Below, in pieces: positions 1,923 through 15,642 of a stretch of 64,000 nt of DNA (position 1 is its first letter; every line of letters starts with the position of its first letter). The notes beneath the pieces were generated by a model. The model saw only the letters and a program-made list of their open reading frames with translations, made no database searches and was not told the DNA's origin. The translations under genes were made by a program, and so were the position numbers. This DNA is from an uncultured Caulobacterales bacterium (GTDB taxonomy: Bacteria; Pseudomonadota; Alphaproteobacteria; Caulobacterales; Caulobacteraceae), in NCBI GenBank assembly GCA_903884425.1, contig CAISEP010000002.1, forward strand, positions 62,001-126,000. The letters run 5' to 3'.

Positions 1923-4331
1923 ATGAAATACGGGATCACCCGCAGCCTGATGCTGTCCGCGGCATCGGTTGCCCTCATGGGCGGCACCCTGGTGGCGCAG
2001 CCCGCCCTGGCGGCCGCGGCCGCCACGTCGCCGGACACCGTCGCCGACGTCATCGTCACCGCGCAGAAGCGGTCCGAGAACCTGCAGAAGGTGCCGCTGG
2101 CCGTCAGCGTCGCCAGCCAGGAAACCCTGCGTGACAACGCCATCGGCAATGCCGAGAGCCTGGACGAGGTGGTTCCCTCGCTGACCTTCAAGAAGGGCAC
2201 GGCGAACGTGAACTCCACCCTGTCGGTGCGCGGCATCGGCACCCAGTCCTTCTCCTCCGGCGCGGAGCCCAGCGTCTCCACCGTGGTGGACGGCGTGGTG
2301 TTCGGCCGCTCCGGCATGGCCTTCCAGGAATTCACCGATCTCGACCACATCGAGGTGCTGCGCGGGCCGCAAGGCACCCTGTTCGGCAAGAACGCCTCGG
2401 CCGGTGCGGTGAACATCGTCACCAAGGGCCCGACGGCCACCCCGGCGGGCGACTTCTCCATCGCCGGTTATCAGCACGGCGAAGTCCGGGCCGACGCCAA
2501 TGTCAGCGGCCCGATCAATGACAAGATGGGCTACGCCCTGTCGGCGGTCTACGGCGACTTCAAGGGCAACATCTTCAACAACTACACGAACAAGTGGACC
2601 AACGGCTATCGCCACGAGGGCGTGCGCGGCACCTTCACCAACCAGATGAGCGACAACCTGCTGCTCACCCTGCGGGCGGACTATGTGAAGGCCGACGACA
2701 ACTGCTGCGCCGACGTGCTGGGCCCCTATGTTGCGGGTGCCTCGCCGATCGCCAACATCCTGCTGCCCTCGATCCCGGGCGTGCAGGCCTATTACGGCAG
2801 CAAGCGCGTCTACGACAACCTGACCCCCGGCACCCTGGACGACAACGGCGGCCTGTCCGCCCAGCTGGACTGGAGCCTGAAGGGCCTGAAGGTCACCTCG
2901 ATCACCGCCTGGCGCGAATGGCGCAACAAGCAGATCCGGGACGGGGACTTCCACGCCACCAATTCCAACTACGCCAACTCCATCGACGTGGCCGACGCCG
3001 ACTATGGCGAGCTGAACTACAACCAGTTCAGCCAGGAACTGCGCGTCGCCTCGGACAATGACAGCAAGCTGCAGTACGTGGCCGGGGCCTTCCTCTGGTA
3101 CACGCACGAGAACGACTGGTTCAACCGCTTCGTCCAGCAGTGCACGGCCTCGACCCTCCCGGCCGACGCCACCACCTACAAGCCCTGCAGCGCGGCCCCC
3201 GGCGTCTCCACCCTGATCAACGCCCAGGGCCCGGCCCAGTGGACCACGGACTTCTGGAACCAGGCCCTGTTCGGCCAGGCCACCTATGCCGTGACCGATG
3301 CCCTGAAGCTGATCGGCGGTCTGCGCGTCAGCCACGACCGGGTCGCCTACTCCCTGTCGCGGGTCTCCTATCCCACCGGCGCGCCCAATGCCCCGGCCGG
3401 GATCCAGCCGTCCTTCACCGGCGCGGAACATGCGGACAAGATGGGCGTCTCCGGCAAGCTGGGCGCCGAGTACCAGCTGAACGCCGACGAGATGCTCTAT
3501 GCGACCTATTCCCGCGGCTACAAGGGACCGTCGCTGAACGACTTCTACAGCGAGAACACGGGCAACAAGGGCACCATCGCGCCGGAAACCTCCAACGCCT
3601 ATGAAGTCGGGGCCAAGTCCCAGTTCTTCAACCACCACCTGACCCTGAATGCCGACCTGTTCTGGGAGGACTTCGACCACTTCCAGGCCAATACCTTCGT
3701 CTTGCAGGGCACCACGACCTTCGTGACCCTCGGCGACGCGGGCAATGTCCGGTCCAAGGGCTTCGAGATGGACGCCACCTGGCATGCCACGCCGGACCTG
3801 ACGATCACCGGCGGCTACACCTTCGATGACGCCACCATCGTCAGCTACAACTGCCTTGCGGCGCAGAACGTCTACAATGCCAGCCCGACCCTGGCGAACC
3901 AGCAGACCCTGACCAAGTGCACCCTGCACAACGGTCGCCCCCTGCCCTTCGCCCCGAAGAACAAGTTCAACGTGACCGGCGTCTATGACGTGCCGGTGCC
4001 GCAGAACATGCCCTTCGACCTGAAGGTCAGCTCCACCTACACCTATACCAGCACCATCAACTTCGACCTCGACCAGTCCGACCTGGCCCGGCAGAAGAGC
4101 TATGGTCTGTGGGACGCCCAGGCGACCTTCTCCTCCAAGGACGGCCGCTACCGGCTCTCGCTGATCGGCAAGAACCTGGCCAACCAGTACTACACCACCT
4201 TCGTCACCCCCGGTGGCGCGGGTCCGGCGCCGGGCACCCTGTCGCCCCTGCGGGCCGGGTCCTTCACCCGTCTGCAGGTGCCGCGGGACGCGGTGGCCTA
4301 TGTGGGTGTGAAGCTGACCGCCAGCTACTGA
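1923..4331 (+). CDS. TonB-dependent outer-membrane receptor (uronate-locus)
   Basis: An 802-residue protein with a signal peptide (MKYGITRSLMLSAASVALMG... cleaved near ALAAAAA), a TonB-box-like segment (ADVIVTAQKRSENLQKVPLA), a plug domain (GIGTQSFSSGAEPSVSTVVDGVVFG; EVLRGPQGTLFGKNASAGAVNIVTK, about residues 45-165) and a beta-barrel ending in an aromatic residue (GVKLTASY). Such receptors import bulky substrates through the outer membrane with TonB-ExbBD energy. The neighbouring FadR-type regulator and uxaC suggest an oligouronide or related ligand, but the sequence itself does not show the substrate. The start at 1923 follows an AGGA-like ribosome site and directly begins the signal peptide. 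A strong terminator follows. Confidence 0.9.
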   Translation: MKYGITRSLMLSAASVALMGGTLVAQPALAAAAATSPDTVADVIVTAQKRSENLQKVPLAVSVASQETLRDNAIGNAESLDEVVPSLTFKKGTANVNSTLSVRGIGTQSFSSGAEPSVSTVVDGVVFGRSGMAFQEFTDLDHIEVLRGPQGTLFGKNASAGAVNIVTKGPTATPAGDFSIAGYQHGEVRADANVSGPINDKMGYALSAVYGDFKGNIFNNYTNKWTNGYRHEGVRGTFTNQMSDNLLLTLRADYVKADDNCCADVLGPYVAGASPIANILLPSIPGVQAYYGSKRVYDNLTPGTLDDNGGLSAQLDWSLKGLKVTSITAWREWRNKQIRDGDFHATNSNYANSIDVADADYGELNYNQFSQELRVASDNDSKLQYVAGAFLWYTHENDWFNRFVQQCTASTLPADATTYKPCSAAPGVSTLINAQGPAQWTTDFWNQALFGQATYAVTDALKLIGGLRVSHDRVAYSLSRVSYPTGAPNAPAGIQPSFTGAEHADKMGVSGKLGAEYQLNADEMLYATYSRGYKGPSLNDFYSENTGNKGTIAPETSNAYEVGAKSQFFNHHLTLNADLFWEDFDHFQANTFVLQGTTTFVTLGDAGNVRSKGFEMDATWHATPDLTITGGYTFDDATIVSYNCLAAQNVYNASPTLANQQTLTKCTLHNGRPLPFAPKNKFNVTGVYDVPVPQNMPFDLKVSSTYTYTSTINFDLDQSDLARQKSYGLWDAQATFSSKDGRYRLSLIGKNLANQYYTTFVTPGGAGPAPGTLSPLRAGSFTRLQVPRDAVAYVGVKLTASY

Positions 4332-4428: not shown

Positions 4429-4506
4429 TCCCCCCTCCGGCACCCGGGGCGGCAAGGGCGAGGAATTGACCCTTGCCTGCCGGGAAACCCTGCCGCACTC
4501 TTGCTG

Positions 4507-4522
4507 TTGAATGGTCGTTTAG
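4507..4522. promoter_or_regulatory. Proximal BetI-like box 10 nt before the ChoX-ChoW start
   Basis: TTGAATGGTCGTTTAG matches the box before the betI-betB fusion (TTGAATGAGCGTTCAA) at 12 of 16 positions. Both boxes end exactly 10 nt before their start codons, an arrangement that would block translation-start-proximal transcription. It suggests that the fused regulator controls uptake and synthesis together. Confidence 0.5.
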
Positions 4523-4532
4523 CGGAGGCTGC

Positions 4533-6371
4533 ATGAGACGGAGCGCGCCCAGGACACGGGCCGGCCGATCCGCGGGGGTGGGGGAAATCCTCTGGGCCCT
4601 GACGCTGCTCTTGACCGCGCTTGGCCTTGCCCTCCCCGGCATGGCGACGGCCGCCGACCCGGCCACCTGCAAGGCCGTGCGCCTGTCCGACATCGGCTGG
4701 ACCGACGTCACCGCCACCACGGCCGTCACCAGCGTGATCCTCGAGGACCTGGGCTATGCGCCGAAGATCACCGTCCTGTCCGTGCCCGTCACCTATGCGG
4801 CCCTGAAGAACAAGGACGTGGACGTCTTCCTCGGCAACTGGATGCCCTCCATGGCCGAGGACCGGGCACCCTTCATCAAGGACGGTTCGGTGGACGTGGT
4901 CCGCATGAACCTGGACGGGGCCAAGTACACGCTTGCGGTGCCCGAGGCCCTCTATCAGGCGGGGCTGCACGACTTCAACGACATCCGCAGGTTCGCCGGG
5001 CCGCTGAACCATTCCATCTACGGGATCGAGCCGGGGAACGACGGCAACCGCCAGATCCTGACCCTGATCCACAACAACACCCACGGCCTGGGGGACTTCA
5101 AGCTGGTGGAGTCCTCCGAGCAGGGCATGCTGGCGGAGGTGGAGCGGGCGATCCGCGACAAGCGCCCCATCGTCTTCCTGGGGTGGGAGCCGCACCCCAT
5201 GAACACCCGCTTTCCCATGCGCTACCTGTCCGGCGGCGATGCCAGCTTCGGCCCGAATTTCGGCGGGGCGAAGATCTATACCAACACCCGGGCCGGCTAT
5301 GTCCGCGACTGCCCCAATGTCGGGCGGCTGCTGCAGAATCTCAGCTTCACCCTCAAGGACGAGGATGAGCTGATGGGGGCGATCCTGGACGCGCACCAGC
5401 CGCCCAAGGCCGCCGCCACGGCCTGGCTGACCGCCCATCCGCAGACGCTGAAGCGCTGGCTGGAGGGGGTGACCACCCTTGACGGCAAGCCGGCCACGAC
5501 CCTGGCCGCCGCCGCCACGGCCGACGGCCCCATGGCCCTGATCACCGCCCACAAGATTCCCATCGGCCCAGCCATGTCGAGCCTGGTGGATGCGGTCAAG
5601 GCCCATGGGGCGGGCCTGTTCGACGCCATTTCCGTCGGTGTGCACGGGGCGGTGGACGGCCTGACCTTCCTTCTGAAGCAGGTGCCGCCGATCCTGCTGG
5701 TGGGTCTGATCGCCCTGCTGGCCTGGGGTCTGCAGCGGTCCCTGCCCCTGACCCTGTTCGTCGGCGCGGCCCTGCTGCTGATCATGAACCAGGGATACTG
5801 GGACGCCATGCTGGAGACCCTGTCCCTGGTGCTGTTCTCCGCCCTCATCTCCACCCTGATCGGGGTGCCCCTGGGCGTGGCGGCGGCGCACCGGCCGTGG
5901 CTGTACAACGCCCTGCATCCGGTGCTCGACCTGATGCAGACCCTGCCGACCTTCGTCTATCTGATCCCGACGCTGGTCCTGTTCGGGCTGGGGGTGGTGC
6001 CGGGGCTGATCTCCACCGTCATCTTCGCCCTGCCCGCACCCGTCCGACTGACCCATCTGGGCATCAGCTCCACGCCCAAGCCCCTGCTGGAGGCGGGAGA
6101 GGCCTTCGGGGCGACGAAGACCCAGCTGCTGTTCACCATCGAACTGCCGTCGGCCATGCCCACCATCGTCGCCGGGATCACCCAGTGCATCATGCTGAGC
6201 CTGTCCATGGTGGTGATCGCGGCCCTGGTGGGGGCCGGCGGGCTGGGCGTGCCGGTGGTGCGGGCCCTGAACACCGTGCAGGTGGCCATGGGCTTCGAGG
6301 CCGGGTTCGCCATCGTGCTGCTGGCCATCATCCTCGACCGGATCACCCGCCCACGGAAGGATGCGGCATGA
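4533..6371 (+). CDS. Choline/betaine ABC transporter: substrate-binding protein fused to permease (ChoX-ChoW type)
   Basis: A single 612-residue frame joins two usually separate subunits. Residues about 20-300 form a periplasmic binding protein of the OpuAC/ChoX type: signal or membrane segment, then VRLSDIGWTDVTATTAVTS, VDVFLGNWMPSM and IVFLGWEPHPMN, which carry the aromatic residues that cage quaternary ammonium groups. Residues about 370-608 form a ProW/ChoW-type permease with several membrane helices and the EAA-like loop (EAGEAFGATKTQLLFTIELP). The ATG at 4533 is chosen because GGAGG at 4524-4528 precedes it; an in-frame ATG at 4473 lacks a ribosome site. It overlaps the ATPase gene by ATGA. 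Two BetI-like boxes lie upstream. Binding protein-permease fusions are known in this transporter class, mostly with the permease first; this order should be checked. Confidence 0.85.
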   Translation: MRRSAPRTRAGRSAGVGEILWALTLLLTALGLALPGMATAADPATCKAVRLSDIGWTDVTATTAVTSVILEDLGYAPKITVLSVPVTYAALKNKDVDVFLGNWMPSMAEDRAPFIKDGSVDVVRMNLDGAKYTLAVPEALYQAGLHDFNDIRRFAGPLNHSIYGIEPGNDGNRQILTLIHNNTHGLGDFKLVESSEQGMLAEVERAIRDKRPIVFLGWEPHPMNTRFPMRYLSGGDASFGPNFGGAKIYTNTRAGYVRDCPNVGRLLQNLSFTLKDEDELMGAILDAHQPPKAAATAWLTAHPQTLKRWLEGVTTLDGKPATTLAAAATADGPMALITAHKIPIGPAMSSLVDAVKAHGAGLFDAISVGVHGAVDGLTFLLKQVPPILLVGLIALLAWGLQRSLPLTLFVGAALLLIMNQGYWDAMLETLSLVLFSALISTLIGVPLGVAAAHRPWLYNALHPVLDLMQTLPTFVYLIPTLVLFGLGVVPGLISTVIFALPAPVRLTHLGISSTPKPLLEAGEAFGATKTQLLFTIELPSAMPTIVAGITQCIMLSLSMVVIAALVGAGGLGVPVVRALNTVQVAMGFEAGFAIVLLAIILDRITRPRKDAA

Positions 6372-7441
6372 GCGCGCCCGTCCCCGCCTCCATCGCCGTC
6401 GAGTTTCGCGACGTGGACATCCTGTTCGCGCCCAGGGGGCCGCGGGACCCGGCCCTGTCCCGGGCGGAGGCCCTGCTGAAGGCGGGGGCCGACCGCACGC
6501 GGATCGCTGCGGAGACCGGCGTGGTGCTGGGCGTGGCCGGGGCCAACCTGACCGTCCGGGCGGGGGAGATCTCGGTACTGATGGGTCTGTCCGGGTCCGG
6601 AAAGTCCACCCTGCTGCGCGCCGCCAACGGCCTGAACCGGGTCACCCGGGGGGAGGTGCGGGTGCGCCACGGGGGCGGGACCGTGGATGTGGCCGCCTGC
6701 GATGAAGCGACCCTGCGGGACGTCCGGCGCAAGTCCGTGGCCATGGTCTTCCAGCAGTTCGGCCTGCTGCCCTGGCGCACGGTGCGGGACAATGTGGGCC
6801 TGGGGCTGGAGTTCCAGGGCGTGGACAAGGCCGAACGCGCCCGCCGAGTGGACGAGAAGCTGGCCCTGGTGGGCCTCACGGACTGGGCCGACCGCAAGAC
6901 CCAGGAACTGTCCGGCGGCATGCAGCAGCGGGTGGGCCTGGCGAGGGCCTTTGCCACCGACGCCGACATCCTGCTGATGGACGAGCCCTTCTCCGCCCTC
7001 GACCCCCTGATCCGCAGCCGGTTGCAGGACGAGCTGCTCAGCCTGCAGGCCAGCGTGCACAAGACCATCCTGTTCGTCAGCCACGACCTGGACGAGGCCC
7101 TGAAGCTGGGGGACAGCATCACCATCCTGGAGGGCGGGCGGATCATCCAGTCCGGCGGGTCGGAGGACATCGTGCTTCGTCCGGCCACGGACTATGTGGC
7201 GGAGTTCGTCCGGCACATGAACCCCCTGTCCGTGCTCACCGGCACCACGGTGATGCGGCCGGTGGATCCGGCGCAGGACGGAGCGCCGGAGGCGGAGGAT
7301 GTGATGGCGGCGGACACGTCCCTGGGCGACCTGATCGACCGGCTGCACCGGTCCGGACGGCCGGTATTCCTGTCCGACGACGGACGGATCGTCGGCGTGT
7401 GCGGACCGTCCGAGATCCTGGCGGCCCTCGCCCGGCGGTGA
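6368..7441 (+). CDS. choV: Choline/glycine betaine ABC transporter ATP-binding protein
   Basis: A 357-residue ATPase of the ProV/OpuAA/ChoV group. Visible motifs are Walker A (GLSGSGKST), Q-loop (MVFQQFGLLPW), signature (LSGGMQQRVGLARA), Walker B (ILLMDEPFSALDP) and the H-loop (FVSHDLDEA). The extra N-terminal segment before the core (about 55 residues) is typical of ProV, and the C-terminal tail resembles a shortened CBS-like region (SLGDLIDRLHRSGRPVFLSDDGRIVGV). The start ATG overlaps the stop of the ChoX-ChoW fusion (ATGA), indicating translational coupling. Together the two proteins make a complete importer, assuming homodimeric permease and ATPase. The 3' end abuts a composite REP-like repeat. 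Confidence 0.9.
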   Translation: MSAPVPASIAVEFRDVDILFAPRGPRDPALSRAEALLKAGADRTRIAAETGVVLGVAGANLTVRAGEISVLMGLSGSGKSTLLRAANGLNRVTRGEVRVRHGGGTVDVAACDEATLRDVRRKSVAMVFQQFGLLPWRTVRDNVGLGLEFQGVDKAERARRVDEKLALVGLTDWADRKTQELSGGMQQRVGLARAFATDADILLMDEPFSALDPLIRSRLQDELLSLQASVHKTILFVSHDLDEALKLGDSITILEGGRIIQSGGSEDIVLRPATDYVAEFVRHMNPLSVLTGTTVMRPVDPAQDGAPEAEDVMAADTSLGDLIDRLHRSGRPVFLSDDGRIVGVCGPSEILAALARR

Positions 7442-7722: not shown

Positions 7723-10059
7723 CTAGTTGAAGTGGTAGGTCAGGTTGACGCCCCAGGTCTGCGGCTTGGCATAGACGCTGGGGATCTGACCGGTCGAGGC
7801 CGCCACGTCATAGGTATAGACGCGGTAGATCTCGTTGGTGATGTTGTTGAGGAAGAAGGCGGCTTCCCACTTCTTGCCGTTGGGCGTCCAGCTGATCCGG
7901 GCATTGTAGACCGTGTGGGCCCCTTCCCGTTCCACCGGCGCGCACAGCACGGAGAAGCAGAACCGGCCCGTATACTGGGCGTCCCCCTGCAGGGCCAGGT
8001 AACCGGGACCCACCGGGAACTCGTAGCGGGCCAGCCCCTGGGCGGAGGTGTGCGGGGCCTGGGGCAGGTGGCGATCCACCAGGGTGCCGTCCGGCAGGTT
8101 CACGTTCTTCACCTGGTTGTCCAGCAGCGAGGTGGACCCCTGCAGGGTCAGGCCCTGGACCGGGTGCGTGACCAGCTCCACCTCGAAGCCCTCCTCGTTC
8201 GCCTTCTTGTTGACCACGCTCTCCACGAACTGCTGGTAGGTGAAGGCCTGATAGTTCGTGTAGTCGTAATAGAAGGACGTGACGTTCAGGGTGGTCTTCA
8301 GGGGCAGGGTCGACTTGAAGCCGACCTCATAGGCGTTCAGCACCTCCGGCTTGTAGGGAATGCCGTTGAGGAACGCCGCCTCGTAGCCGGCAAAGGGCGT
8401 GGCCGTGGACAGGGTGAAGCCGCCGCTCTTGGAGCCGCGGTTGAAGCTGCCATAGACCAGCACGTCCTGGGTCGGCTTCCAGTCCAGTTCGGCGCGGACG
8501 GAATAGTCGTCGAAGGTCTTGTCCGCATCCGACGGCTTCACATTGATCCCCGCCGTCACCTGCGAGGTGCCGTTGAAGGCATAGACCTCGCTGGTATTGA
8601 AGATGATGTGCTCGGCATAGGTGTCGAAGGCGTCGTAATTGACCTTGCGCTCATCGTTCCAGTAGCGCGCGCCGAAAATGGCCTTGAAGTTGTTGGGCAG
8701 GGTCCACTCGTCCTGGGCGAACAGGGCGTAGGAGGTGGTGTCCTGGGTGAAGGTCACGTTCGGCACATAGGGGCCATAGGCGCCGCCCACGGAATAGACG
8801 TCCGTATAGCCGTTCTGCGGGGCCGGCAGGGCGTAGGAGGCGGTATAGTAGCCGCTGACCTTCATGGCGAAGGCCCCCACCACCAGCTCGTGGTCGCCGA
8901 AGTGGCCGGAGGCGCGGATCTCTTCCGAAGCCTGCTTCACATTGGCGTTCTGGGCGAAGTTCACCTGATGGCTGGGAGACGCGCTGGGGTCCTCCAGATA
9001 GTGCTTGCCGTTGCTCTGCACGTCGGTGATCGAGGTGACGCGGAAGGCACCGACGGGGAATTCCACCTTCAGATTGGTGCCGAACAGGGTGCGGTCGGTA
9101 TAGGAGGGGCCGCGGGCCTCCGTCAGGAAGGGATTGCCCCCCCGCTGCGGGTCCAGCGCGGTGTTCTCATAGCCGCTGAAGTCCGGGCCCGACGAGGTGT
9201 AGGTGCCCTGGCCGTTGGCGTTGGGCACCGCGCCCTCCCAGGCATACATGCCCGCCGAATGCTCGTGCGGATTGCGGGCGAAGCGGACATTGAAGGTCAC
9301 GTCCACCTGGTCCGTCGGCTGCCAGGCGAAGATGCTGCGCAGGGCCCAGTGGTGGATGGCCCCACGGCTGGCGATGCTGGGGTCGAGGTTCTTGATGTAG
9401 CCGTCGGCCTCTTCCTGCATCCCCGACAGGCGCGCCTGCAGCCGGTCGGTGATCGGGCCGGAGACCGCACCCTCGATGTTGAAGTCCTGATAGCTGCCCG
9501 TGCCCACGGTCAGGTCCGACTGGAAGTCCCGGGTGGGCTTGTTGGAGATGAACTGGATGGCGCCGCCGGTGGCGTTGCGGCCGAACAGGGTGCCCTGCGG
9601 CCCGCGCAGCACCTCGACCCGCTGCAGGTCGAACAGGGGGAAGCCCGCCGAGACGAAGGAGCTGGAATAGCTGTCGTCCTGATAGACGGCCACCGGCGGC
9701 TCCTGCTCGTCGCCGAAGTCGTTCTGCGACACGCCGCGGATGTTGAAGACCACGGCGGACGGGGTGTACTCGTTCATCTTCAGGCCGGGCACGTCCCGCA
9801 CCAGATCGGTGGAGTCCTTGATGCCCTGGCTGGCCAGCTGGGCGGAGCCCACCACGGTCACGGCAATGCCCACGTCCTGCAGGCGCTGTTCCCGCCGCTG
9901 GGCGGTGACCACCACCTGCTCCACCTGATCCGCCGCCGGGGCTGCGGCCGCAGCGTCTGCCGCCGCCGCCACGGAGGGCACGACGCAGAGGCCGGCAAGG
10001 GCGGCGCCGGACAGCAGCGCGGAGCGAAGCGCGGTCGCCGATGGGTAAATCCGAGCCAT
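7723..10059 (-). CDS. TonB-dependent outer-membrane receptor (choline-locus)
   Basis: A 778-residue receptor with a signal peptide (MARIYPSATALRSALLSGAALAG...), TonB-box-like VEQVVVTAQRREQRLQDV, plug motifs (VPGLKMNEYTPSAVVFNIRG; VEVLRGPQGTLFGRNATGGA) and a barrel ending in aromatic-rich NLTYHFN. The start at 10059 is preferred because AGGATCAGGACC precedes it; a start at 10086 would add nine non-signal residues. It lies 168 bp downstream of betA on the same strand, and the partner ABC transporter converges on it, so a quaternary-amine or phosphocholine-type ligand is a reasonable guess only. No full BetI-like box was found before it; there is just a half-site (TTGAATG) at 10143. Confidence 0.88.
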   Translation of the reverse strand: MARIYPSATALRSALLSGAALAGLCVVPSVAAAADAAAAAPAADQVEQVVVTAQRREQRLQDVGIAVTVVGSAQLASQGIKDSTDLVRDVPGLKMNEYTPSAVVFNIRGVSQNDFGDEQEPPVAVYQDDSYSSSFVSAGFPLFDLQRVEVLRGPQGTLFGRNATGGAIQFISNKPTRDFQSDLTVGTGSYQDFNIEGAVSGPITDRLQARLSGMQEEADGYIKNLDPSIASRGAIHHWALRSIFAWQPTDQVDVTFNVRFARNPHEHSAGMYAWEGAVPNANGQGTYTSSGPDFSGYENTALDPQRGGNPFLTEARGPSYTDRTLFGTNLKVEFPVGAFRVTSITDVQSNGKHYLEDPSASPSHQVNFAQNANVKQASEEIRASGHFGDHELVVGAFAMKVSGYYTASYALPAPQNGYTDVYSVGGAYGPYVPNVTFTQDTTSYALFAQDEWTLPNNFKAIFGARYWNDERKVNYDAFDTYAEHIIFNTSEVYAFNGTSQVTAGINVKPSDADKTFDDYSVRAELDWKPTQDVLVYGSFNRGSKSGGFTLSTATPFAGYEAAFLNGIPYKPEVLNAYEVGFKSTLPLKTTLNVTSFYYDYTNYQAFTYQQFVESVVNKKANEEGFEVELVTHPVQGLTLQGSTSLLDNQVKNVNLPDGTLVDRHLPQAPHTSAQGLARYEFPVGPGYLALQGDAQYTGRFCFSVLCAPVEREGAHTVYNARISWTPNGKKWEAAFFLNNITNEIYRVYTYDVAASTGQIPSVYAKPQTWGVNLTYHFN

Positions 10060-10227
10060 GGTCCTGATCCTCGTTCCGGCGCGCACGCCAAGTGTTTTAG
10101 CCTGATTTTGAAAAAATGTACGTCCGACCGTGAGTCCGTCACTTGAATGTTTGCGCCACGGGTCCGCGCGTTTCCGTCATGGGAGCGTCATAAGCGACCT
10201 CGGCCGACGGCGGTTGCATTTGCGCCA

Positions 10228-11886
10228 CTACCGCTGGGCGGTCTCCCAGTTCCCGGCCACGTGGAAATCGGCGTTGGAGGGCGGCAGCGGCGTCCGGCCG
10301 AGGATGTGGTCCGACGCCTTCTCCGCCAGCATGATGGTGGGGGCATTCAGGTTGCCGGTGGTGATCGACGGCATGATCGAGGCATCGGCGACCCGCAGGC
10401 CCTCCACCCCGATCACCCGGGTCTCCGGGTCCACCACCGCCATGGGATCGTCGGCGCGGCCCATGCGGCAGCTGCAGGAGGGGTGATAGGCCGTCTCCAC
10501 CTTGTCGCGGATGAAGGCGTCGATGGCGGCGTCGTCGGTCACATGGCTGCCCGGCTGCAGCTCCTCCCCCCGATAGGGATCGAAGGGGGCCTGGGCGAAG
10601 ATCTCCCGGGTCAGGCGGACGCAGGCGCGCATCTCCTCCCAGTCGTCCGGGTGGCTCATGTAGTTGAAGCGGATCTCCGGCTTGGCCGACGGCTCGGGGG
10701 AGCGCAGGCGCACCCAGCCCCGGCTCTTGGACCGCATGGGGCCCACATGGGCCTGGAAGCCGTGCTGCTTCGCCATCGACTGGCCGTCATAGGTCACGGC
10801 CAGCGGCAGGAAGTGATACTGGATGTCCGGATAGCGGATGCCCGCCCGGCTGCGGATGAAGCCGCAGCTCTCGAAGTGGTTGGTGGCACCCAGCCCGTCC
10901 TTCAGCAGCACCCAGCGGGCCCCGATCAGGAACTGGGCCAGCGGATTCATGACGGAATAGAGGGTCACGGGCAGTTTGCTGGCGACCTGGAAGTAGAATT
11001 CCAGATGGTCCTGCAGGTTCTCCCCCACCCCCGGCCGGTCGGCGATCACCGGAAGGCCGTGACGGCGAAGCTCCTCCGCCGGGCCGATGCCGGACAGCTT
11101 CAGCAGCTGGGGCGAATTGATCGCGCCCCCGGCCAGCACCACCTCCCGCGCGGCGCGGACGGTCACGGTCCGGTCGCCCTGCCGGTAGGTGACGCCCACG
11201 GCGCGGCGTCCCTCGAAATCGATGCGGCTGACCTGGGCCCGGGTGCGGACCGCGAGGTTCGGGCGGTTCCGGGCGGGCTTCAGATAGGCGGTGGCCGCGC
11301 TCCAGCGCCGCCCCTCCCCCACCGTCATGTCCATCCGGCCGAAGCCCTCCTGCCGGCGGCCGTTGATATCGTCCGTATGCGGATAGCCCGCCGCCTCTGC
11401 CGCCGCCAGCCAGGCGGCGTGCAGGGGGTTCTTCAGCGTGCCGTAGCGGGTCTTCAGCGGCCCGCCCTCGCCCCGCCAGGCATCGCCCCCCTCGGCCCGG
11501 TCCTCTGCCCGCTTGAAATAGGGCAGCACGTCGGCATAGCCCCACCCCTGCGCCCCCTCGTCCCGCCAGCGCTCGAAATCCAGGGGATTGCCGCGGACAT
11601 AGACCATGCCGTTGATGGCCGACGAGCCGCCCAGCACCCGCCCGCGGGGGGTGTGCAGCCGCCGCCCGCCCAGGGCCGGTTCCGGCTCGGCCTCGTAGTC
11701 CCAGATGTAGCGCTTGTCGTTCATGGGGATCGACAGGGCCGTGGGCATCTGGATGAAGATCGAGCGGTCGTCGCCCCCGGATTCCAGCAGCAGCACCCGG
11801 TTGCCCGGGTCCGCGCTCAGCCGGTTGGCCATGACGCAGCCCGCAGACCCCGCGCCGATGATGACGAAGTCGAACATCTCCGACAT
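10228..11886 (-). CDS. betA: Choline dehydrogenase (GMC oxidoreductase)
   Basis: A 552-residue GMC flavoenzyme that oxidises choline to betaine aldehyde (and can continue to glycine betaine). The Rossmann FAD motif is at the N-terminus ([19 protein letters not shown]); GMC signatures follow ([36 protein letters not shown]), and BetA-specific segments are present ([32 protein letters not shown] with the catalytic His). Length matches BetA (about 550). The gene begins 8 bp after the betI-betB fusion stop and is almost certainly co-transcribed with it. Confidence 0.95.
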
Positions 11887-11894
11887 GGGTCGCC

Positions 11895-14015
11895 TCAGTA
11901 GGGGGCGTCGATGGCGCCCAGGGCGACATAGACGCTCTTCAGCTGGGTGTAGTGCTCGATGGCGGCGCGGCCGTTCTCCCGGCCCAGGCCCGAAGACTTG
12001 TAGCCGCCGAAGGGCAGCTCGATGGGCGTGACATTGTACTGGTTGATCCAGCAGGTGCCCGCCTGCAGCTCCGCAATCACCCGGTGGGCGCGGGTCAGGT
12101 CCTTCGTGAACACCCCGGCGGACAGGCCGAACTCGGTGTCATTGGCCCGGGCCACGACCTCCGCCTCGGTGTCGAAGTCCAGCACCGCCATCACCGGGCC
12201 GAAGATCTCCTCCCGCACGATGCTCATGTCGTCCGTACACGCATCGAATATGGCGGGGGAGACGAAGTGGCCCTGCGCCAGGGCCCCGGCGGTGAGGCGT
12301 TCGCCGCCCATCACCAGCCGCGCCCCCTCGGCCTTGCCCTGTGCGATATAGGCCAGCACCTTGTCCATGTGCGCGCGGGAGATCAGGGCCCCCACATGGG
12401 TGCTGGGATCGAGGGGATCGCCGATCACCATCTTCGCCACCCGCGCCGTCAGCCTGTCGAGGAAGGCCTGCTTGACTGACCGGTGCACGAAAACCCGGGT
12501 GCCGTTGGAACAGACCTCTCCCGCCGAATAGAAGTTGGCCATCAGGGCCCCGGACACGGCATTGTCCAGGTCCGCATCCTCGAACACGATGAAGGGCGAC
12601 TTGCCGCCCAGCTCCATGGTCACGGCCTTGAGCGTCGGCGCGGCATCGGCCATCACCTTCTTCCCCGTCTCCACCGCGCCGGTGAGGGAGACCTTGCGGA
12701 TCAGGGGATGGCGGGACAGCAGACGCCCGGTCTCGACCCCGCCCTGCACCACATTGAACACGCCGGGCGGCAGGCCCGCCTCGGTATAGATCTCCGCCAG
12801 CCGCAGCGCCGTCAGGGGCGTCAGGTCGGCGGGCTTGAAGATCATGGCATTGCCGCAGGCCAGCGCCGGGGCGGATTTCCAGCAGGCGATCTGGATCGGA
12901 TAGTTCCAGGCCCCGATGCCCGCCACCACGCCCAGGGGCTCGCGCCGTGTGTAGCCGAAGGCCTGGGGCCCCAGATCGATGTGCTCTCCGCTGATGGTCG
13001 CCGCCACCCCGCCGAAATATTCGAGGCAGTCCGCGCCGGACATCACGTCCACCGCCAGGGTCTCCTGGATCGGCTTGCCGGTGTCCCGGGTCTCCAGCTC
13101 CGCCAGTTCGGCATTGGCGGCACGCAGCAGGTCGGCGGCGCGCTTGAGCACTCGGCCGCGCTCCGTCCCGGTCATGCGGGCCCAGACCTTTTGCCCCGCG
13201 ACGGCGGCGGCCACGGCGGCCTCCACCGTGTCGGGACCGGCGATCTCCACCACGCCCAGCAGCGCCCCCGTCGCCGGGTTGCGGGTCTCGAAGGTCGCGC
13301 CGGACCCGTCGATGAAGGCCCCGCCCACATGGCTGCGGAACACATGCCCGGAGCCGGGAACCGCCACGGCCGGGGCTTCCGCCCCCATGGCCGCCAGACG
13401 GCTGTCGACAAAGGCGGTGAGCATGGCCCGGGCGCTTTCGCTGTCCGCCTCGCGCCAGGTGGACAGGGCCGCCCGCAGCCAGACCCCATCGATCATCGCC
13501 GCGATCATGGCCGCCAGCCGCCGCGCTTCCGCCCCCGGCAGCAGCATCTTCAGGGCATGCCGCAGATTGGACAGCATGCGCTTCTGGTAGACCAGCTGGA
13601 CCCGGCGCAGGCTCTCGTTGTGCAGGACCTGCCCCCAGAAGGCGAGCCAGGCGGAGCCGGTACGCTGGTCGAACTCCTTGGCGTCCAGATTGGCGTCAAT
13701 GACCGCCTGCACCCGCTCCCGCGGGCCGTCGGCGGCATTGAGCCGGGCCAGCACCGCCTCCCCCAGCCGGGTCGTCAGGGTCCGGAACGCCGCCTCGAGC
13801 AGGCCGTCCTTGTCGCCGAAATAATGGGCCACCAGACCGGGGCTCACCCCCGCCCGACCGGCGATCTGGGCGAGCGTCGATCCCACGTATCCCACCTCGG
13901 CCAGGCTATCGAGGGTCATCTCGATCAGCTGGCCGCGGCGTCCCTCATCCCCGTCGTTGCGGGAAGGGCCGGACGCGGACGGTTCGGGCGGCCTGGGCGG
14001 CTTTGAGGAGGACAT
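11895..14015 (-). CDS. BetI-BetB fusion: TetR-type choline repressor joined to betaine aldehyde dehydrogenase
   Basis: One uninterrupted 706-residue frame. Residues about 27-210 are a full BetI: TetR helix-turn-helix ([20 protein letters not shown], about 51-70) and the BetI ligand domain ([32 protein letters not shown]). Residues about 215-706 are a full betaine aldehyde dehydrogenase: [32 protein letters not shown], catalytic Glu468 (MELGGKSP) and Cys502 ([12 protein letters not shown]), and EEIFGPVM. The two parts adjoin with almost no linker ([20 protein letters not shown]). E. coli encodes them as separate genes betI and betB. The ATG at 14015 follows GGGGTGAA; a BetI-like box lies 10 nt upstream. 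An internal ATG at the junction (about 13388) has no ribosome site, so separate BetB synthesis is not obvious. The design resembles PutA, an enzyme that represses its own genes. Confidence 0.93.
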
Positions 14016-14358
14016 TTCACCCCGATTGAATGAGCGTTCAACCGGCAGGCTATCATGCTCCGGCCCCGGGGCGTCAATCCTGCCCGGGGTCGCAACACCC
14101 GGCACGGGACCGTCCGGAGGCGACAATATGCGACCCTGGATAGTATTTTCACTGCGATCCCGGCGGCCCGCTTCTCCCGACAGGTGAACCGGACCGGCGG
14201 GGATGGCCACGCTGGCAAGGAATGACGCCGCGCTGACCGGCCCATCGGTCGCTCACAACTCCCCCACTGGTTGTTCTGCCGCCGGGCCCTGCTGTTGCGC
14301 CGCCCGGGATTTCCGTTAAGATTTTCAACGTGCGGCGTAGCCCGCGAGGGGGTGCCGT
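14016..14358. promoter_or_regulatory. Divergent control region between betI-betB and the Ntn-hydrolase gene
   Basis: A 343-bp gap without a credible gene. It contains the BetI-like box (14026-14041) and, on the minus strand, a possible sigma70-type promoter: GTGAAA at 14152-14147 and TATTGT at 14128-14123 with an 18-bp spacer, in an AT-richer patch. Transcription from it would run into the box. Nothing distinctive was seen for the plus-strand gene apart from a GAGGGGG ribosome site at 14345-14351. Confidence 0.45.
14026..14041. promoter_or_regulatory. BetI-like operator before the betI-betB fusion
   Basis: TTGAATGAGCGTTCAA is a near-palindrome (12 of 16 positions symmetric, outer five bases perfect) placed 10 nt before the start codon. 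Autoregulatory TetR proteins usually bind such sites. Related boxes occur before the choline transporter at 4413 and 4507. Confidence 0.65.
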
Positions 14359-15642
14359 TTGACCAGCGAAGTCCTGCTGATGAATCTGGAGGCCGTCGTT
14401 CTCGGTGCCGACAGCGCCGTGACGATCTCTGCGCCGGACCGGGGCCGCTTTTCCCAGTCGGGCATCGAGAAGATCTTCCTGGTCAACGAGAGGGGACCGG
14501 TCGCGGCCATGGTCTATGGGGGCGGGTCCTATTGCGGCCTGCCCTGGCGTACGGTCCTAGGCCAGTTCAGCGACTATTGCGGCCCGGACCTGCTCAGTCT
14601 CGACGACTATTTTTCGAAGCTGAACGACTATCTCGCCAACATCGAAAAACACACCAACGTGGGCATCGACCCGAGCTACGAGGTCGACAACTTCAACGCC
14701 TACATGGACGACTTCATCCACGACTATCTGCTGTGGGTGCTGGCGGCGGGCTGGACGCCGGGCCAGCCGATCCCCGAGGCCACCGCCTTCAAGGCCCTGA
14801 AGTACCTGGAGCAGGAGGTGCTGTTCGAGCCGGACATGCCCTATTCCGGCGAGGCCGATGCGGGGGGGCCGGTCCCGCGGGCCCGGGTCGAGGCCAGTTC
14901 CCGGCTGACCGACCTGGTGGCGCGCAACCTCGCCTCGGCGGTGTCGACGGCCCTCGGTCGCAAGCTGCAGGGCGTCGCCATGCCGGAGGCGGTGATCCCG
15001 CCCCTGCTGCGCCTGGCGGTGGAATCCCTGGTGGTGGAGTGGCTGCCGGATTCCTCCCTCTATACGGGCCTCGTCCTGGCGGGGTTCGGGGCCGGTCAGG
15101 CCCTGCCGGCGCTTTACAGCTTCCGCTTCATCGGGGCCTTCGGCGGACTGCTGAAGACCCGCCGCTATGCCCCCCGCCGTCCGCGGCCGAACAGCGATCC
15201 GGTGATCTTCCATTCCTATGCCCAGGACCAGTTGATCCGCGGCTTCGTCTATGGCGCGCTGCCGGAATACGAGACCACCGTGCGCCATGTGACCATGGAC
15301 TATCTGATCCGGACCTTCGACGCGATCGTCGGCAACATCAGCGAGACCAACAAGAAGCTGGCCGAACAGGTCCGCGAACAGCTGGCCGACGTGGCGCGGG
15401 AGGCCACCGCGCTGGGCCTGAACACCGCCCGGGCGCAACGCTCCGGCGAGGTGTTCGAGACCCTGTGGCCGGCGCTGGATTCCGCCAATGCCGATGTCCT
15501 GTCCTCCCACGCCCTCAAGCTGATGGAGCTGACGGTGCTGGAACACGAACTCTTGGCCGAGCCCAGCGTCTCCCGGCCGATCTGGGTGCTCGCCATGGAA
15601 CGGGGCCGCTTCTACTGGCTGAAGGATGGGGTGCGAACATGA
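14359..15642 (+). CDS. Proteasome/HslV-like Ntn-hydrolase family protein (uncharacterised)
   Basis: A 427-residue protein beginning at a TTG codon that follows GAGGGGG with good spacing. Removing Met would expose Thr1 (TSEVLLMNLEAVVLGADSAV). Counting from that Thr, an Asp falls at position 17 in the GADSAVT motif, exactly where proteasome beta subunits have Asp17, and a Lys lies at 37 (EKIFLV), near the proteasome Lys33. The next strand AAMVYGGGSY resembles the glycine-rich turn of the fold. The rest (residues about 90-427) is helical and longer than HslV (about 175 residues); it shows no transmembrane segment and no recognised second domain. The residue spacing supports a threonine-type hydrolase, but family membership and substrate are inference. 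It overlaps the next gene by ATGA. Confidence 0.6.
   Translation: MTSEVLLMNLEAVVLGADSAVTISAPDRGRFSQSGIEKIFLVNERGPVAAMVYGGGSYCGLPWRTVLGQFSDYCGPDLLSLDDYFSKLNDYLANIEKHTNVGIDPSYEVDNFNAYMDDFIHDYLLWVLAAGWTPGQPIPEATAFKALKYLEQEVLFEPDMPYSGEADAGGPVPRARVEASSRLTDLVARNLASAVSTALGRKLQGVAMPEAVIPPLLRLAVESLVVEWLPDSSLYTGLVLAGFGAGQALPALYSFRFIGAFGGLLKTRRYAPRRPRPNSDPVIFHSYAQDQLIRGFVYGALPEYETTVRHVTMDYLIRTFDAIVGNISETNKKLAEQVREQLADVAREATALGLNTARAQRSGEVFETLWPALDSANADVLSSHALKLMELTVLEHELLAEPSVSRPIWVLAMERGRFYWLKDGVRT

Follow-up and report, generated by a model that had tools for sequence, protein, structure and literature searches.

The betIB locus

In the window, by which we mean the whole 64-kb stretch of DNA analysed here, one open frame of 706 codons on the reverse strand joins the repressor BetI to the betaine aldehyde dehydrogenase BetB (Table 1). 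This frame, betIB, starts at an ATG at position 14015 and continues stop-free upstream of it to about 14250. Both halves score above curated NCBI equivalog cut-offs: the BetI half alone passes TIGR03384 (207.8 bits, cut-off 201.3) and NF001978 (203.2, cut-off 118), and the whole chain passes the BetB models NF009725 (793.3, cut-off 593) and TIGR01804 (683.0, cut-off 668.6). In Pfam, the Aldedh match covers the full profile. The first-pass annotation of this DNA had described a complete BetI and a complete BetB in a single frame, which is thus borne out, but it had also seen almost no linker between them, which is wrong, since about 26 residues (208-233) separate the Pfam domains. Elsewhere in the bacterium's own 3.58-Mb genome, the next aldehyde dehydrogenase (ALDH) is only 44% identical to the BetB half, and the next match to the BetI C-terminal family reaches 52.6 bits versus 100.5 for betIB.

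The window holds a second fusion from the same pathway, choXW, in which an OpuAC domain is joined to an ABC permease. Two TonB-dependent receptors, at 1923-4331 (+) and 7723-10086 (-), flank the choline genes, and a 427-aa frame upstream of betIB (14359-15642, +) has no Pfam match.

Table 1 Features of the choline locus, in window coordinates
Feature	Position	Strand	Basis
betIB, BetI-BetB fusion gene, 706 aa	11895..14015	-	open frame, Pfam, NCBIfam
TetR_N DNA-binding domain, residues 31-76	13788..13925	-	Pfam
TetR_C_6, BetI-type ligand/dimer domain, residues 98-207	13395..13724	-	Pfam
Linker, residues 208-233, with in-frame ATG codon (M210) lacking an SD-like sequence	13317..13394	-	Pfam gap, junction comparison
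Aldehyde dehydrogenase domain (BetB), residues 234-695	11931..13316	-	Pfam, NCBIfam, Foldseek
Catalytic Glu468 codon	12612..12614	-	alignment
Catalytic Cys502 codon	12510..12512	-	alignment
BetI-box palindrome, 9 nt before betIB ATG	14025..14042	-	motif scan
betA, GMC choline dehydrogenase, starts 8 nt after betIB stop	10228..11886	-	open frame, Pfam
Second BetI-box-like site, 9 nt before choXW ATG, 3 mismatches to search pattern	4506..4523	+	
choXW, OpuAC binding protein fused to ABC permease, probable choline uptake	4533..6371	+	Pfam
ABC ATPase frame, start approximate	6371..7441	+	

The alignment places Asn371, Lys394, Glu468, Cys502 and Glu603 in betIB, and the catalytic Glu468 and Cys502 had been numbered rightly in the first pass. 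We take their roles to be those in BetB, with Cys and Glu catalytic, Asn in the oxyanion site and Lys in the NAD site. Among the intact fused chains aligned, Asn371, Lys394 and Glu468 were present in 21 of 21, and Cys502 in all 20 that reach that position. From homology to BetI and BetB, the fused chain would be expected to respond to choline and to be enzymatically active. In an AlphaFold model of the window chain the ALDH half resembles solved betaine aldehyde dehydrogenases (BADHs; Foldseek TMt 0.84). For the model of a degenerate chain, L090 (see below), Foldseek also finds BADHs, but only at a TM of 0.3-0.4 and an rmsd of about 12. Both models, built from shallow alignments of 15 and 17 rows, are middling in quality (mean pLDDT 74.0 and 72.2, pTM 0.55 and 0.42), the window model being poor at residues 652-706, and no domain interface could be read from either.

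Distribution of the fusion

The same in-frame chain is common to many other genomes, in Caulobacterales, Xanthobacteraceae, Sphingomonadaceae, Acetobacteraceae, Aurantimonadaceae and gammaproteobacterial MAGs. The fusion is therefore broader in occurrence than the single sequence of the first pass indicated, and a sequencing error hiding a stop or frameshift, the caveat raised there, is excluded by these many in-frame counterparts. In a scan of named genomes, BetI and BetB shared one frame in 18 of the best 80 loci of a larger list, coming from a Caulobacterales MAG, Ancylobacter, Azorhizobium, Faunimonas, Aureimonas, Gluconacetobacter, Sphingomonadaceae, several gammaproteobacterial MAGs and one record labelled Arthrobacter, which groups among Proteobacteria in trees. 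The gene betA follows betIB on the contig in 15 of these 18 loci; of the three exceptions, L045 and L060 stop within the ALDH or right at it, and L049 has a betA frame further on.

Since the scan of named genomes favours full-length matches, we sampled further with the BetI half alone. The distribution of the fusion is patchy: in the window's own order, among the matches listed, at least 2 of 299 genomes (the source genome and one of the same genus) have a close BetI match in a fusion-length frame, a count that covers close matches and places weaker long-frame ones, such as that of G136 (707 aa, E 5.9e-8), outside it. A sample of 385 genomes from the class yielded 32 matches to the BetI half at E 1e-28 or better, the fused ones being those of the source genome and G650, where the enzyme is live, and of G562, where it is degenerate. 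By comparison, 26 of 296 genomes from the order to which one gammaproteobacterial MAG belongs matched at E 1e-36, with 25 fused (22 in frames of at least 699 aa, 3 cut by contig ends) and one split, and in the Azorhizobium family all 34 matches among 296 genomes lay in frames of 696-831 aa (29 of them read). Of 54 further loci read, some of which repeat genomes already sampled through the other collection (L060/L177, L039/L204 and L051/L214, for example, share junctions), 53 were fused.

The ALDH half leaves the frame in L049 and L056, in both of them part way, and in L164, which may reflect decay or assembly error. One candidate, the 663-aa frame of G326, was rejected as a fusion, its long frame lying upstream of BetI. 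Two Komagataeibacter plasmid records match both halves, and in the record examined both are covered by a 2031-nt CDS whose sole name is betB, a naming gap that hides the repressor half from database users. We found no report of a BetI-BetB fusion in the literature searched, in which few subscription journals were within reach.

Origin, re-splitting and loss

A BetI tree of 107 rows placed all 30 chains that are fused, degenerate or relic in one clade (SH-aLRT 98), without any split BetI among them. A mixture-model tree of 80 rows that included further loci gave a clade of 42 rows (support 98) with one split member, L197. Similarly, in a BetB tree of 94 rows all 20 fused sequences fell within a clade of 24 (support 97), the other four of which (L048, L052, L054 and L057) have no BetI half. 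These trees favour a single origin of the fusion over several independent ones. The number of changes of state was 5 in a FastTree run of 129 rows, in which fused L181 and L192 were labelled unfused by the motif test and long branches met, and 2 in the mixture-model run, which used 12 of the 54 new loci and omitted eight unfused rows that were distant or long (L007, L019, L068, L119, L134, L135, L138 and L141), most of which are present in the 107-row tree that still gives one clade. One of the four BetBs without BetI, that of Methylocapsa sp. S129 (L054:3629-5491), carries an in-frame N-terminal DUF302 domain instead, and a second kind of BetB fusion may thus exist.

The near relatives L117 and L118 have betI and betB as separate neighbours, which in the sister locus L118 lie in the same frame, divided by just one stop, so that losing this stop would create a fusion. 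The simplest origin would therefore be a one-time loss of the stop codon between two operon neighbours. The reverse was seen once, at L197:54-2232 (-), where there is a single operator. Because L197 is nested inside the fusion clade and its betB has its own GTG preceded by AAAGG, we read it as a later fission. Together with the four BetBs without BetI, this re-splitting indicates that the fusion is not indispensable.

The junction between repressor and enzyme

The first-pass annotation had noted that two separate proteins, made from an internal start, would undo the fusion. The distance from a fixed BetI point to the NPATG motif ranges from 17 to 48 residues across 68 junctions (one of 69, without the motif, was dropped). 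In the window chain AlphaFold confidence is low at residues 212-222 and the linker is predicted to be unstructured. An in-frame ATG occurs in 31 of the 68 junctions and a start codon of any kind in 56, in 9 of them together with an SD-like sequence, whereas 12 junctions have zero start codons, so that in some lineages a free BetB cannot begin within the junction. This excludes the objection in part. In the Xanthobacteraceae group a Met about 27 residues before NPATG, roughly where a free BetB would begin, recurs in many loci, and a separate BetB could be made there. On balance, with few SD-like sequences and none at M210 of the window, we think it unlikely that a start at or near M210 yields free BetB beside or instead of the fusion.

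A dead enzyme half under selection in Chelatococcus relatives

Of 18 genomes in the family to which Chelatococcus sambhunathii belongs, 6 (C. sambhunathii, a Methylopila MAG and four more) carry BetI followed in frame by an ALDH-like domain, 2 carry BetI with a short remnant, and 10 have no match at E 1e-45. The ALDH-like domain scores 148 bits in L090 and 193 in L157 by Pfam. Asn, Lys and the catalytic Glu and Cys are lost in all seven degenerate chains, if that of G562, which is shorter, is included. Separate betB and betA genes lie nearby in L089 and L090, the two degenerate loci with wide flanks; in L090, choX-, permease- and ATPase-like frames run divergently from the chain, betB and betA come after these frames, and each start has one strong box.

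The dead ALDH halves are under relaxed purifying selection. Four close pairs, of which three are drawn from the same three sequences, gave dN/dS values of 0.21, 0.32, 0.25 and 0.24 for these halves, compared with 0.006-0.09 for the BetI halves of degenerate chains and 0.04-0.15 for the ALDH halves of intact fusions. In no pair did the amino-acid changes reach even the lowest of 300 neutral placements (59 versus a minimum of 106, 47 versus 64, 67 versus 102 and 93 versus 136). Over longer distances the constraint is looser (dN/dS 0.45-0.49 at dS 0.83-0.98). Between G562 and G707 the ALDH half evolves at the neutral rate (dN/dS 1.14; 197 changes, neutral mean 211), so plain decay also happens. 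What is new here is a selected BetI-ALDH chain whose enzyme half, judging from its residue losses, is catalytically dead. With the catalytic residues gone and the fusion still selected, the enzyme half would do something other than catalysis in these bacteria.

These findings bear on how far the two halves are coupled. Loss of a stop codon may simply have joined neighbours that work as before, with enzyme activity, oligomeric form and DNA binding uncoupled. This fits the 7 of 28 unfused adjacent pairs, including L118, that share one frame, the variable and apparently unstructured linker, and the ability of the chain to re-split (L197) and to lose its halves separately. It sits less well with a chain of single origin that persists in 25 of the 26 close BetI matches of one group and in all 34 of another, and with a catalytically dead half under purifying selection in one family. 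We regard this reading as plausible, if somewhat short of an even chance.

Alternatively, the ALDH half could act as a trigger enzyme like PutA, its occupancy by betaine aldehyde or NAD(H) altering DNA binding, as the first pass had also considered. An enzyme and a repressor do share one chain with intact active-site residues, and PutA has been described as switching in response to substrate and cofactor (PMC9132996). Nevertheless, BetI already has its own choline-binding half, and of the seven degenerate chains, all without Asn, Lys, Glu and Cys, six are still selected as fusions, which makes such switching unlikely in our judgement.

Operator and putative regulon

The BetI-like palindrome reported just upstream of the gene in the first pass is real: GTTGAACGCTCATTCAAT at 14025-14042 (-) ends 9 nt before the ATG and is conserved in relatives. 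Upstream of fused genes it takes the form of an 18-bp palindrome with the consensus ATTGAACGATCATTCAAT. With the motif built without the locus tested, the box beat all 200 shuffles in each of 29 upstream regions (21 intact, 6 degenerate and 2 relic); in the upstream region of L160, left out of the motif, the scan found no box. In Ruegeria pomeroyi, BetI is reported to be a choline-responsive repressor acting at such a box, ATTGACG-CGTCAAT (PMC12442346); the half-sites given there are similar to ours, but the spacing differs. Given the conserved operator directly upstream, it is very likely that the fusion represses its own gene, as first suggested. A promoter scan found no sigma-70-like promoter near the betIB start.

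The betIB box is the best motif match in the window, with a score of 27.1 to which the window's own site contributes as one of the 29 sites building the motif, versus 16.7 for the next. This weaker second site stands 9 nt before the choXW ATG. In the source genome, when up to 3 mismatches were allowed, the pattern was found at 12 places, with 14 strand matches in all, compared with 2 for a reversed control. One of these sites, with a single mismatch, lies 3 nt before a gene for an AraC/DJ-1 regulator (L167:433-1515 (-); C17 near 173119 in the source genome) beside soxG, encoding sarcosine oxidase gamma. We take this regulator to be GbdR-like, and the box at its gene suggests that the choline repressor may also gate betaine breakdown. 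With boxes before betIB, choXW and the AraC/DJ-1 gene, the fusion probably governs choline uptake, choline oxidation and entry into betaine breakdown. In the same-genus genome (L175:4920) a BetI-box-like site was seen near the start of the TonB receptor that follows betA, a hint that this receptor might serve outer-membrane uptake of choline or betaine.

Paired boxes

Fixed patterns found two boxes within 420 nt upstream of 59 of 72 fused loci and of 1 of 46 unfused loci (57 of 70 labelled fused and 3 of 48 labelled unfused before two mislabelled fused rows were moved). By motif matrix, 41 of 73 fused loci had paired boxes, as did 6 of the 7 degenerate loci and both relics, but none of the 46 unfused loci; both patterns and matrix derive from fused loci and so favour them. 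The gene choX lies on the opposite strand in 53 of 70 loci labelled fused and 28 of 48 labelled unfused; such divergence being common in both groups, gene order alone fails to explain the difference.

BADHs are tetramers and TetR proteins are dimers, and the LacI tetramer bridges two operators. The first pass had held that the fusion forces an unusual assembly, and the paired operators, the one pointer to it here, may hint at this. A tetrameric ALDH core could carry two BetI dimers and thereby form a bivalent repressor that bridges the paired boxes at the choX/betIB divergon, the enzyme half having then lost catalysis in the Chelatococcus group and been kept as a dead scaffold or sensor. The abundance of paired boxes in fused loci, by both methods, is consistent with this, as is the one box of the re-split L197. 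The trait follows one clade, however, and so comes close to a single event, scored with patterns trained on fused loci. Moreover, the relics without ALDH (L161 and L162) retain both boxes, each box may serve one of two divergent genes, and the window has a single box at betIB. Nor is helix phasing significant, at p 0.25 for 10.5 bp and p 0.08 for the best of 10.2-10.8 bp (33 spacings without near-copies). Bridging is thus a tentative and rather doubtful reading. If true, it would provide a natural series leading from an enzyme to a regulatory domain, in which the intact, dead, shortened and lost stages can all still be found.

A probable self-repressing choline enzyme and its relation to known systems

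Our combined findings make it likely that betIB unites, in one protein, an autoregulated, choline-relieved BetI repressor and the betaine aldehyde dehydrogenase BetB. The analysis directly shows the fusion itself, its intact active-site residues, a clade for which a single origin is favoured, a conserved operator, the presence of such boxes before three genes of the source genome and, in one family, a dead but selected ALDH. Without choline, a dimer of the BetI half would occupy the 18-bp box at the start of the betIB-betA transcript and the like boxes at the choline ABC transporter and the AraC/DJ-1 regulator, keeping all of these genes repressed. Binding of choline by the BetI half would release it from DNA and switch on uptake, betA and betIB, after which the BetB half, if catalytic when fused as we infer, would oxidise the betaine aldehyde produced by BetA. 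Every enzyme molecule made would come with a repressor, so that the system would shut itself once choline is gone. The ALDH half probably also sets the oligomeric form of the repressor.

The chief value of these findings lies in a natural series in which one repressor is followed by enzyme halves that are live, dead, shortened or lost, a series that makes the question of how an enzyme becomes a regulatory domain testable on natural proteins. Furthermore, since the repressor half carries a ligand domain of its own, experiments could tell choline sensing apart from enzyme state.

Compared with BetI (TIGR03384) and BetB (TIGR01804/NF009725) of bet operons, betIB is alike in sequence, operator type and neighbouring betA, but it is one chain rather than two genes, often has paired boxes, and has dead-enzyme descendants. 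It extends the range of known enzyme-regulator fusions to a further pathway, and its TetR repressor brings a ligand domain. PutA contains ribbon-helix-helix, PRODH and ALDH domains. It resembles betIB in combining an enzyme and a self-regulating DNA-binding protein in one chain, with an ALDH domain in both. In betIB, however, Pfam finds only TetR_N, TetR_C_6 and Aldedh, outside the PutA domain set: a TetR repressor with its own ligand domain replaces the ribbon-helix-helix and there is no proline dehydrogenase. PutA is described as a trigger enzyme of proline catabolism (PMC9132996). A further parallel is BzdR, which is reported to join a DNA-binding domain to a shikimate-kinase-like domain, an enzyme domain turned regulatory with its activity lost (PMC3602430). 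The BzdR intermediate is reported to have been laboratory-built, whereas the intact, dead, shortened and lost stages of betIB are natural, and the DNA-binding half of betIB brought its own effector domain.
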